Source: Oceanicaulis sp. (lineage in GTDB: Bacteria > Pseudomonadota > Alphaproteobacteria > Caulobacterales > Maricaulaceae). Taken from it: a stretch of DNA of 64,000 bases. The stretch spans positions 19,456 to 83,455 of the forward strand of contig JAFIEB010000009.1 in assembly GCA_020832735.1 (NCBI GenBank), read 5' to 3'. A program made the translations under genes and the position numbers. The notes beneath the pieces were generated by a model. It worked only from the letters and a program-made list of their open reading frames with translations, was not told where the DNA came from and did no database searches. Shown piece by piece: positions 22,327 through 28,832 of the stretch (positions are counted from its first letter, which is position 1; the number at the start of each line of letters is the position of its first letter).

Positions 22327-22446
22327 CGGCGCGCAAGTCGTGAGGATTCCGGGCGACGCGATCGATCCGAAGGATCGCTAACGGCGCGCAAGTCGTGAGG
22401 ATTCCGGGCGACGCGATCGATCCGAAGGATCGCTAGCGGCGCGCCT
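22298..22446 (+). repeat. 55-bp tandem repeat, about 2.7 copies, starting inside the 3' end of oppC
   Basis: The block that begins GCGACGCGATCGATCCGAAG occurs at 22298, 22353 and 22408, a period of exactly 55 bases. Copy 1 encodes the last residues of OppC (DAIDPKDR and the TAA). Copies 2 and 3 are non-coding duplicates; the third is cut after about 39 bases and carries one change (TAG for TAA). Each copy contains the small hairpin CGATCC-GAA-GGATCG. The array ends at the stop of the convergent gene. Confidence 0.9.
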
Positions 22447-23059
22447 ATTCGGAGCGGCGCGCCCGGAAGCGGCGCGGATGGTGGCTGAGCGCCATGAAGT
22501 AGGAGCCCAGGGCTCCGGGAATGAGATCGGCGGTCAGTCCTTCCTCCAGACGGCTCCGGCTGACCCGGCCGAACTGGGTGGAATCGGTTTGCACCCAGAC
22601 CTGGCCGTTGGCCAGCGTCACGATGGCGCGTCCGGTGCGGTCATAATTCACGGTGCGCACGGGCAGGGCGCGCATCTCCTCCACACCGCCGTCGGCGCGG
22701 TAGATGATCTGGCTGCCGTCTTGGAGGGTCTCGGTTTCAGCTTCGGCTGATTCGCCGCCGCCCCGGCGCAACAGGCCGGTCAGGCGCTGGACGCCGGGCA
22801 TGGCGATTCCGAAGCTCTCGCGCTCCAGCGCGCGCACCGCCTCGCGCTCGATCACCACCACGTGTCCGGTCTCGACGGCCCGGGCGAACGCCGCCAGCTC
22901 CCGGTCCATGCAGGCCATGCGCTCAGTGTCCGGCTCGACGGCCCGGCACGCCATCAGAGCTGTATAGGCCGGCGATGCGGGTTCGTCCTGGTGGGCAAGT
23001 GCGGCCGGAGCGGCCAGCGCGCTGGCGAGAAGAACGGAGGCGAAGCGGGCGAGGGTCAT
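22445..23059 (-). CDS. Secreted protein of unknown function
   Basis: A 204-residue protein with a signal peptide (MTLARFASVLLASALAAPAALA, cleavage likely after ALA at residue 22). The mature N-terminus has CRAVEPDTERMACMDRELAAF, a two-cysteine pattern seen in several periplasmic proteins. A beta-rich stretch follows (SQIIYRADGG, RAIVTLANGQVWVQTDSTQF), then a basic C-terminus (HHPRRFRARRSE). I cannot name a family. It is convergent with oppC, with the 55-bp repeat filling the space between, and divergent from oppA. Confidence 0.7.
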   Translation of the reverse strand: MTLARFASVLLASALAAPAALAHQDEPASPAYTALMACRAVEPDTERMACMDRELAAFARAVETGHVVVIEREAVRALERESFGIAMPGVQRLTGLLRRGGGESAEAETETLQDGSQIIYRADGGVEEMRALPVRTVNYDRTGRAIVTLANGQVWVQTDSTQFGRVSRSRLEEGLTADLIPGALGSYFMALSHHPRRFRARRSE

Positions 23060-24973: not shown

Positions 24974-26233
24974 ATGACCGAACCGGATCTGGAAGCCGCC
25001 GCCCGGACCGCTGCCGAGCACGTTGCTGCGGCCGCCGCCGCCAGCGCCGGGCGCCGCCCCCGGGTGCGCCCGTCCCGGCCAGGGGCGCTGCGTCCGGATA
25101 CGCCAGAGGGCGTCTGCGCCAATTGCGGAGCCCAGCTGATGGGGCCGGTCTGCCACGCCTGCGGCCAGCACGCTGATCTGTATAAGCGACCGGTGTGGCG
25201 CCTGATCGCCGACGGCGTCTCCGACCTGTTCGCACTCGACGGACGCGCAGCGCGCACGGTGTGGGAGATGATGGCCTTTCCTGGCCGGGTCACGCGCGCC
25301 TATCTCAAGGGACAGCGCGGGCGCTTCATTCCTCCCTTCCGGCTCTATCTGATCGCATCGCTGGCGTTTTTCCTGATCCTGCCGCTGGTCAATACGGCCG
25401 GCCCGATGACCGGTTATGATCCTGAGGGCGGCCAGATCGCGCGCGAACGCCTCGACGAGGCGCTGGCCGCGGGAGACATGACCCCCGAGGGTCATCGCGC
25501 CGCCACACAGGCGATCGACGCCTTGGGCGTGTTCGATCCGCGCAACCGGACGGTCACGCCGGCCGGGCCGGCCGCCGGGGAGGAAAGCGGAGCGGCGGAC
25601 GCGCAGGACGCTGCTCCAGAGCCGTCAGATGAGGCGCCAGCGCCAGGCCGGCCATCCACGCCCGAGCCCGATAACAGGACTGTCTTCACCTTCAACATGG
25701 ATGAGGGCCTGAACCCGGCCGCAATCGAGGCGCTGCGCCGGACCTTTGTGCCTGAAGAGTTCGGACTGCCAACGGATTCAGTCACCGGTTCGCGCGCTGC
25801 GCGCACCTTCATCGCCAACCGGCTCGAGCGCTTGGCCAGCCGGCCGGATCGATGGGCGGCGGAAAGCCTGGCCTGGGCGCCGCGCATCATGTTCGTCATG
25901 GTGCCGCTGTTCGCGGTGCTGCTGGGCCTGGCCTATGCCTGGCGGCGCGGGTTTTTGTATTTCGACCATCTGATCACGGCGTTGCATTTTCACGCCGCGA
26001 TCTTCATGGCCATGCTGGCGGCCATGGTGATCAGCCTGGCCACGGGGCCGGGCTGGGCGATGCTGGCCTTCTTCATGTACGCCCACATCTATCTCTACCG
26101 CCTGTTGCGCGTGGTCTATTCCACAGGCCGGGTGCAGGCGGTGATGCGCGTGGCGGCGCTGGACGCGGCCTATGGCTTCCTGATCCTGTTGGGCATGGCC
26201 GCCATTGTGCTTCTGGGCGCCGTCAGCGTCTGA
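24974..26233 (+). CDS. DUF3667-type membrane protein with zinc ribbon
   Basis: A 419-residue protein with a zinc-ribbon-like pair CANCGAQLMGPVCHACGQH (residues 48-66), a conserved segment up to about residue 115 (GRAARTVWEMMAFPGRVTRAYLKGQR), four or five hydrophobic helices (LYLIASLAFFLILPLV; C-terminal group after residue 300) and a long acidic/proline-rich loop at 190-240. This is the arrangement of DUF3667 proteins, whose function is unknown. ATG start 31 bases behind oppA, so probably the same transcript. Confidence 0.75.
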   Translation: MTEPDLEAAARTAAEHVAAAAAASAGRRPRVRPSRPGALRPDTPEGVCANCGAQLMGPVCHACGQHADLYKRPVWRLIADGVSDLFALDGRAARTVWEMMAFPGRVTRAYLKGQRGRFIPPFRLYLIASLAFFLILPLVNTAGPMTGYDPEGGQIARERLDEALAAGDMTPEGHRAATQAIDALGVFDPRNRTVTPAGPAAGEESGAADAQDAAPEPSDEAPAPGRPSTPEPDNRTVFTFNMDEGLNPAAIEALRRTFVPEEFGLPTDSVTGSRAARTFIANRLERLASRPDRWAAESLAWAPRIMFVMVPLFAVLLGLAYAWRRGFLYFDHLITALHFHAAIFMAMLAAMVISLATGPGWAMLAFFMYAHIYLYRLLRVVYSTGRVQAVMRVAALDAAYGFLILLGMAAIVLLGAVSV

Positions 26234-26843: not shown

Positions 26844-28832
26844 TCAGCGTTCAGGCCCGCCCGGATCGAAGCGTTCCAGCTCGGCGCTGACGATGACGCT
26901 GGCCACCTGGGCGGCGTAGGTTTCGCCGCTGGCGGCGTAGGGGGCCACATGGGGCGCCAGCGCCAGCCCCGTCAGCATCTCGCCTTCAGCGCGCAGCCGG
27001 GCGCGTTCGGTCCTGAGCGGCTCGAAATCGTCATGGGTGTTGAGCAGATCCACATAATCGCCCGCCGAGGCCAGCAGGTTGGAGAAGCGCTCCTGCCCGG
27101 ACGGGAAGCGTCCGAACAGCGCGTTGCGCGCCAGCGCCGCCTCGTTCGAGCCCCAGCCTGTGGCCAGCGCCGCCTGGGCTACGCCCAGCGAAGGCGGGAT
27201 GATGTCGACGCGTTCGATCAGCGCATCCAGGTCCTCGTAGCGCACCCCGTAGCGCCGGGCGAGGGTGTCGCGGCGCGCCTGCTGGGGCAGGGGCAGGGAC
27301 TCGCCCGCCTCGATGCGTGCGCGCATGGACAATAGCGCGGCGCGGTCATCCAGGATGCGTGCGTTCTGGGCGGAGATCAGCCCGGCGGCCACCCGTGCGA
27401 AGGTGTCCCGGCGTTCCTCGGGCGCCAGCTCGGCCCAGTCGGAAGGAAAGGATTCAAGGCGCACCGCCGCGCCGGCGCCCTGCAGGGGGCCAAGCGCGGA
27501 TCGCAATTCCTCCATAGTGGCGGCGGCGAACACCCGTTCAGGCTGGGTCTCGCGCGTCACCGCCCATGACACGGCGAAGCTGAGCAGCGAGAAGCCGGCC
27601 ACCACGCCCGCCACCATGCCGGCGCTGGCCAGGCGCCCGCTGTGCTTGAGGGTCGGAGCGACGCCGAACAGGCGCGCCACCGGCCCGGCGGTCCAGCCCT
27701 GGATCACCAGCGAGGCGATGACCACGGCGAAGGCGGCGGAGAAATACAGGTTGGCGTTCTCCACCCCGGCGATCACCGGATAGGCGCCCAGAAAGATCGG
27801 CACCGCCCCGCGCAGCCCCATCCAGGCGATGAAGGCGCGCTCATTGAGGCGGAAGCGCTCCGGCGCCAGGCAGATCAGCACCGCCAGCGGGCGCGCCAGA
27901 AGGATCAGGATCAGCGCCACGCCGAGCGCGGGCAGGGCGACCTCGGCGGCGTGGCTGGGCGTGATCAGCAGGCCCAGCATCAGGAACAGGCCGATCTGGG
28001 ACAGCCAGGCCAGCCCGTCTGAGAAGCGCTCGGTGGCCTCGGCGGCCCGGCGCTGGGAGGCCGCCAGCGCCACCCCGGCCAGATACGCCGCCAGGAAGCC
28101 CGAGGCGCCGATCACCTGGGCGAAGGCGAACAGGAACACCGCCGAGGCGGCGGCGAAGATCGGATACAGCCCGATGGGCAGGCCCACCTTGCGCTCCAGC
28201 CAGCCGATCAGGCGCCCGCCGAACCAGCCGATCACCCCGCCGGCGGCCAGCGCCCAGACTATGGACACAGCCGCCCCGAACGGTTCGGGCGCGCCGCCCT
28301 GTGACAGCCAGGTCACGGCGGTCACCACCAGAATCACCGCCATGGGATCATTGAAGCCGGATTCAGCCTCCAGCGTCGTGGCCACGCGCGGACGCGCCTT
28401 CAGGTCGCGCCCTGCAATCAGCATCAGCACGGCAGCTGCGTCTGTGGACGATACGATGGCGCCCAGAAGCAAGGCCTCGATCCAGCCCAGATCGAACAGG
28501 TATTTGGCGCCCACCGCCGTCACGCCCGCGGTGATGATCACACCCAGCGTGGCCAGGCTGATCGCCGGGCGCAGCACGCCTTTCAGCCGGCGCAGGCGCG
28601 TGCCGAGCCCGCCGTCGAACAGGATCAGCGCCAGCGCCAGCGAGCCCAGCAGATAGGCGGTGTCATGATCATGGAACTCGAACCCGCCCGGACCCTCCTC
28701 GCCCGCCAGCATGCCCAGCGCCAGGAAGATCAATAGCAGGGGCGCGCCGGCGCGGCGCGTTGCGGCCACGCCCGCAATCGCCAGCAGCACCAGTCCGGCG
28801 GCGGCCAGAAGGATGAGTTCCGTCGTCTGCAT
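26844..28832 (-). CDS. CPA1-type cation/proton antiporter fused to a Bax-like glucosaminidase domain
   Basis: A 662-residue protein. Residues 1-390 are a CvrA/NhaP2-type antiporter (LALILFDGGLGTRLRRL, GAIVSSTDAAAVLMLI, TLEAESGFNDPMAVILV with the ion-binding Asp). The usual cytoplasmic TrkA-C part is missing. Instead comes an extra helix (about 402-425) and then, from about 477 to the end, a domain colinear with E. coli Bax: ISAQNARI, LIERVDIIP, GWGSNEAALARNALFG, YVDLLNTH, FEPLRTERARLRAEG. The Glu of Bax's AAESGWG is Ala557 here. The extra helix would put the domain in the periplasm. ATG at 28832; TrkA-N is also absent. Confidence 0.8.
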   Translation of the reverse strand: MQTTELILLAAAGLVLLAIAGVAATRRAGAPLLLIFLALGMLAGEEGPGGFEFHDHDTAYLLGSLALALILFDGGLGTRLRRLKGVLRPAISLATLGVIITAGVTAVGAKYLFDLGWIEALLLGAIVSSTDAAAVLMLIAGRDLKARPRVATTLEAESGFNDPMAVILVVTAVTWLSQGGAPEPFGAAVSIVWALAAGGVIGWFGGRLIGWLERKVGLPIGLYPIFAAASAVFLFAFAQVIGASGFLAAYLAGVALAASQRRAAEATERFSDGLAWLSQIGLFLMLGLLITPSHAAEVALPALGVALILILLARPLAVLICLAPERFRLNERAFIAWMGLRGAVPIFLGAYPVIAGVENANLYFSAAFAVVIASLVIQGWTAGPVARLFGVAPTLKHSGRLASAGMVAGVVAGFSLLSFAVSWAVTRETQPERVFAAATMEELRSALGPLQGAGAAVRLESFPSDWAELAPEERRDTFARVAAGLISAQNARILDDRAALLSMRARIEAGESLPLPQQARRDTLARRYGVRYEDLDALIERVDIIPPSLGVAQAALATGWGSNEAALARNALFGRFPSGQERFSNLLASAGDYVDLLNTHDDFEPLRTERARLRAEGEMLTGLALAPHVAPYAASGETYAAQVASVIVSAELERFDPGGPER

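Follow-up and report, generated by a model that had tools for sequence, protein, structure and literature searches.

Background

Two described systems come closest to the protein reported here. The first is the Escherichia coli antiporter YcgO (CvrA), of the NhaP2 type (PRK05326), which has 13 helices in its model and was found by cysteine labelling to have its N terminus outside and its C terminus inside the cell (PMC11808508). It ends in a cytoplasmic tail made of an RCK and a CorC domain; activation is proposed to act through RCK, and inhibition by PtsN through CorC (PMC11808508). The second is E. coli Bax, together with its stand-alone alphaproteobacterial relatives, which belong to the GH73 family (PF01832). 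In GH73 enzymes the general acid Glu is invariant, and in enzymes such as FlgJ a beta-hairpin bears a second catalytic Glu (FlgJ Glu223) (PMC4752226). Changing the equivalent of the first Glu to Ala in AtlA-gl abolished activity in a protein that was still folded, and this Glu is essential in nine other members of the family; the Tyr of the YA(S/T)D motif touches the glycan (PMC7170848).

We describe here a gene that unites a wall-enzyme-derived domain and an antiporter of the K+/H+ type in one polypeptide. It lies in a 64,000-nucleotide stretch of DNA from Oceanicaulis sp., which is called the window below. Bacteria need a turgor that is matched to the strength of their wall; to our knowledge, it is largely a matter of conjecture that ion transport is coupled directly to the wall at the molecular level. 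Inactive relatives of wall hydrolases are familiar in another setting, as EnvC and NlpD are wall regulators with inactive LytM domains, in which a pseudo-hydrolase serves for docking in the periplasm. A pseudo-hydrolase has also been retained in DipM of Caulobacter crescentus (PMC10336132), a precedent that may work like the tail described here. However, the LytM domains of these three proteins belong to another enzyme family and have no link to a transporter.

An antiporter and a Bax-like tail in one frame

The gene occupies 26844-28832 of the window, on the minus strand, with GGAAGGATC immediately upstream of the ATG at 28832. The initial annotation had claimed that one uninterrupted frame joins a cation/proton antiporter without a TrkA-C gating domain to a domain colinear with Bax, in a build of which it knew no earlier description. 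These claims held. The frame of 662 codons is open throughout, a frameshift into two genes was not seen, and the same fusion is present in many genomes; the fusion is confirmed. A literature search likewise found no published description of an antiporter joined to a pseudo-glucosaminidase in the openly accessible literature, a scope outside which most subscription papers lie. The architecture is new, both of its building families were already known, and the product is most aptly called an antiporter/pseudo-glucosaminidase fusion.

Residues 1-390 (27663..28832, minus strand) make up a CPA1-type antiporter domain of the CvrA/YcgO/NhaP2 type. In Pfam, Na_H_Exchanger (PF00999) matched residues 15-386 with 181.7 bits, and in NCBIfam the K+/H+ antiporter model PRK05326 (NF003715) matched residues 1-393 with 478 bits against a cut-off of 309. 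The PDB fold matches included MjNhaP1 and PaNhaP, the closest solved single-domain folds (TM-score about 0.75, normalised to the target), which, unlike the fusion, have no C-terminal domain. As in YcgO, 13 transmembrane helices are predicted with the N terminus out. The acidic ion-path residues D131, E155, E157, and D162, whose counterparts in YcgO have been named (PMC11808508), are unchanged across 12 relatives, as is N161. Since these residues are retained, the fused protein is likely to exchange K+ or Na+ for protons. In contrast to YcgO, neither an RCK/TrkA_C nor a CorC domain was found by Pfam in the window protein or 11 relatives (0 of the 12 members), so that CorC is missing in addition to the gating domain noted before. 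A related antiporter of about 395-440 amino acids that has no tail was observed in six genomes of the same family (L089-L094; G145, G021, G186, G688, G163, and G140), and these six sequences cluster as one clade (100/100).

The tail, approximately residues 461-655 (26868..27452, minus strand), is related to Bax and GH73. The NCBIfam model for protein Bax (NF007681) matched residues 473-642 with 70.2 bits when the tail was searched alone, far below the equivalog cut-off of 193. Glucosaminidase (PF01832) matched residues 541-650 with 32.1 bits for the tail alone and 29.8 bits for the whole protein, against a Pfam cut-off of 30.2; PF01832 scored 33.9 bits when all six frames of the genome were searched. 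The tail is homologous to the Bax-like proteins along its own length, part of the linker included. The model of the tail has a mean pLDDT of 89.7, and its best PDB folds (Auto, AtlA, Ecd09610, and LytB) are all glucosaminidases; the top two matches had a probability of 1.00 and E values of 0.009 and 0.066, with modest TM-scores. As a PDB sequence search with the tail returned only FlgJ, at an E value of 0.83, the homology of the tail rests on the profiles, which the fold comparison supports and for which it would be insufficient by itself.

Membrane topology

Between the two domains, AlphaFold2 modelled a helix at residues 400-428 (27549..27635, minus strand), where an extra transmembrane helix had been proposed at about residues 402-425. 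Its hydrophobicity is kept in 12 of 12 relatives, in which the region is 24-65% identical to the window protein. Loops assigned inside contain 0.21 Lys and Arg per residue and the outside ones 0.044, with the charge alternating through the 14 helices; as the boundaries and sides of the loops were taken from the model, this pattern is a consistency check only. Given the 13 helices and the N-out/C-in topology of YcgO, one additional helix would place the tail in the periplasm. Loop charges, the topology of YcgO, and the conserved hydrophobicity of the helix therefore support in silico the periplasmic location that the initial annotation had assigned to the C-terminal domain. A strongly hydrophobic segment precedes the domain in 23 of 32 stand-alone Bax-like proteins, which suggests that the 14th helix was probably the signal anchor of a Bax-like protein.

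Loss of the catalytic elements

We aligned 30 fused tails with 32 stand-alone alphaproteobacterial Bax-like proteins. Position 557 (codon at 27162..27164, minus strand) is the site of the catalytic Glu of the ESGWG motif. All 32 stand-alone proteins have Glu here, and none of the 30 fusions does (28 Ala, one Thr, and one Ser). The loss of this Glu, first noted in the window protein as Ala557, extends to all the fusions examined, which offers a natural pseudoenzyme contrast: the catalytic residue is lost in every fused copy examined and kept in every free one. In the window protein, Ala557 lies in AQAALATGWG, which aligns with AQSALETGWG of the solved FlgJ domain 4qdn.

A second change, which strengthens the initial reading and goes beyond it, concerns the stretch between G574 and Y593. 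Its median length is 17 residues in the fusions versus 34.5 in the stand-alone proteins. The window protein has 18 residues there (575-592; 27057..27110, minus strand), and no beta strand is modelled in them. Judging by its position, this shortened loop would correspond to the hairpin lobe with the second Glu (Glu223) of FlgJ. Three fusions have 22-27 residues and several stand-alone proteins 20-28, so the shortening is graded. The three fusions with the longer loop (L010, L011, and L012) branch early, and their loops are perhaps intermediates in the loss of the lobe. With the Glu site lost and the hairpin lobe shortened or gone, the tail is predicted to be catalytically dead.

Changes in the fusions also affect several positions at which the stand-alone proteins hardly vary (S558T, R564E/D, G569R, N596L, and Y603F). 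A core is kept, namely Q553, G559-W560-G561, N570, G574, and R607. Residue 632, which from its place in the alignment appears equivalent to the aromatic residue of the YA(S/T)D motif, is aromatic in 30 of 30 fusions (27 Tyr and three Phe).

The PF01832 match at 26883-27212 of the window is the only one in the source genome. As it falls in this dead domain, FlgJ of this organism, if present, would have no such hydrolase domain.

Possible role of the tail

The explanation that we favour, with a probability of roughly 45%, is that this protein is a CvrA/YcgO-type antiporter in which a dead periplasmic glucosaminidase serves as a glycan-docking module that places or gates it. The starting point would have been a K+(Na+)/H+ antiporter of this type. 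Its cytoplasmic control tail (RCK and CorC) would have been lost, probably once, in an ancestor of some of the Maricaulales/Caulobacterales, and a membrane-anchored Bax-like glucosaminidase would have been joined to it in frame, so that the anchor became the 14th transmembrane helix and the tail came to lie in the periplasm. The two catalytic elements of the tail, the Glu (now Ala) and the hairpin lobe, would then have disappeared, with its fold and the substrate-contact aromatic residue kept under purifying selection. In its non-catalytic form the tail may dock the antiporter to the glycan of the wall, and the state of the wall may place or gate the antiporter.

RCK and CorC are both gone. 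It is simplest to suppose that the periplasmic tail has taken over control or placement; a known cytoplasmic control would have been exchanged for a predicted periplasmic one. We prefer glycan to wall enzymes as the ligand, given that the fusions retain the aromatic residue of the substrate contact. Against it count the groove positions that differ from the enzymes, listed above. With the hairpin, half of the classical substrate groove has also gone, so that glycan binding should not be taken for granted. The earlier idea of a wall-binding domain and of ion exchange that responds to the wall fits these results, which suggest it without proof, and its glycan-binding part is weakened by the missing hairpin. 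In a broader form, which we put forward tentatively, there might be a class of antiporters controlled from the periplasm, in which the pseudo-glucosaminidase senses the glycan, or the enzymes that remodel it, and takes the place of RCK control in gating or positioning the exchange.

The loss of the hairpin also makes docking to a protein partner a serious alternative. Like DipM or EnvC, the dead tail would then be a platform on which a wall enzyme or some other protein of the periplasm is recruited or activated, and it would not bind glycan; the antiporter would be either the anchor of this platform or under the control of the docked partner. Besides the loss of both catalytic elements, the strong conservation in the fusions of positions like L515 and R526, which are variable in the enzymes, and likewise of replacements like T558 and R569, speaks for such a surface, as does the docking of autolysins by the inactive LytM domain of DipM in Caulobacter (PMC10336132). 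However, the fusions retain Tyr632, Trp560, and Asn570, which would fit a residual binding of glycan, and we consider docking to a protein possible but rather doubtful.

Distribution and evolution of the fusion

The fusion was found in 12 of 61 genomes (the source genome and 60 relatives), each time as one long open frame, in 20 of 119 genomes of the family, and in 25 of 299 genomes drawn from the order. The carriers belong to three families and include single-contig genomes; one match (G141) was listed with one internal stop. An assembly chimera or a frameshift is ruled out, as single-contig genomes and many species share the frame. Alkalicaulis satelles (Maricaulaceae) is the named relative, and cultured members of the group exist, such as A. 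satelles G-192.

Beyond the order, no full-length fusion was present among the matches listed (the best three candidates per genome) for 399 genomes drawn across the phylum. In these matches the best antiporters end near residue 400, though a few extend to 410-425, and the tail matches sit in separate, shorter frames. Long-frame Bax matches in the class (L138-L144) were considered as fusions and rejected, because they are Bax-like proteins with the Glu and without an antiporter domain. Across the class, 167 of 385 genomes contain a relative of the tail. No stand-alone Bax-like protein was found in the 299 genomes of the order draw, in which 25 of 25 matches are fusions.

The fused tails form one clade versus the stand-alone proteins (100/100), a result compatible with a fusion that arose once; the tree is unrooted, and the direction of change is not readable from it. 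In the tree of the transport domain the fusions are grouped weakly (58/46, with a long-branch warning), and a single origin finds no firm support in it.

For five pairs of fused proteins, dN/dS was 0.09-0.25 in the tail versus 0.05-0.10 in the transport part; the fused tails are under purifying selection. These values bear on the remaining alternatives. The tail could be a structural or assembly module that aids folding, stabilizes a dimer, or gives protection and has no link to the wall. The tail-less relatives of about 400 amino acids indicate that the transport domain can do without a tail and that tails are exchangeable, and a helical domain retained merely for its fold would likewise conserve core residues. 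However, the whole tail is under purifying selection, and groove residues, Tyr632 and Asn570 among them, are retained at an identity of about 45%; both observations exceed what core packing would require, which makes this alternative unlikely. It is highly improbable that the tail is a functionless, decaying passenger of an old fusion: the catalytic Glu and the hairpin are lost and the linker is poorly conserved, but dN/dS is low and the frame is open in nearly all members from three families. Equally improbable is a tail that keeps the glucosaminidase fold in order to act as a glycosidase through another acid residue, because GH73 enzymes share an invariant general acid Glu (PMC4752226), AtlA-gl and nine other enzymes become inactive when it is mutated (PMC7170848), and the hairpin is lost too.

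Gene neighbourhood

Only three close relatives share the gene order apt, antiporter, fliR-flhB. About nine other carriers (L121-L128 and L136) have a different recurring gene set near the fused gene. No wall-related genes were found in the neighbourhoods of the window gene, of its close relatives, or of these other carriers, which counts against glycan docking. By eye, the recurring set was seen to comprise an ABC-type ATPase, a small XRE-type regulator beside a small membrane protein, an SLC13-like transporter, and a short MCDGGGGALGHPR zinc-finger-like protein. In the window, a gene for a DUF3667 membrane protein (24974-26233, plus strand) lies upstream of apt, an order conserved in the three close relatives. 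A probably secreted protein of 204 amino acids that has no Pfam match is encoded at 22445-23059 on the minus strand and is 74-78% identical in the same three relatives.
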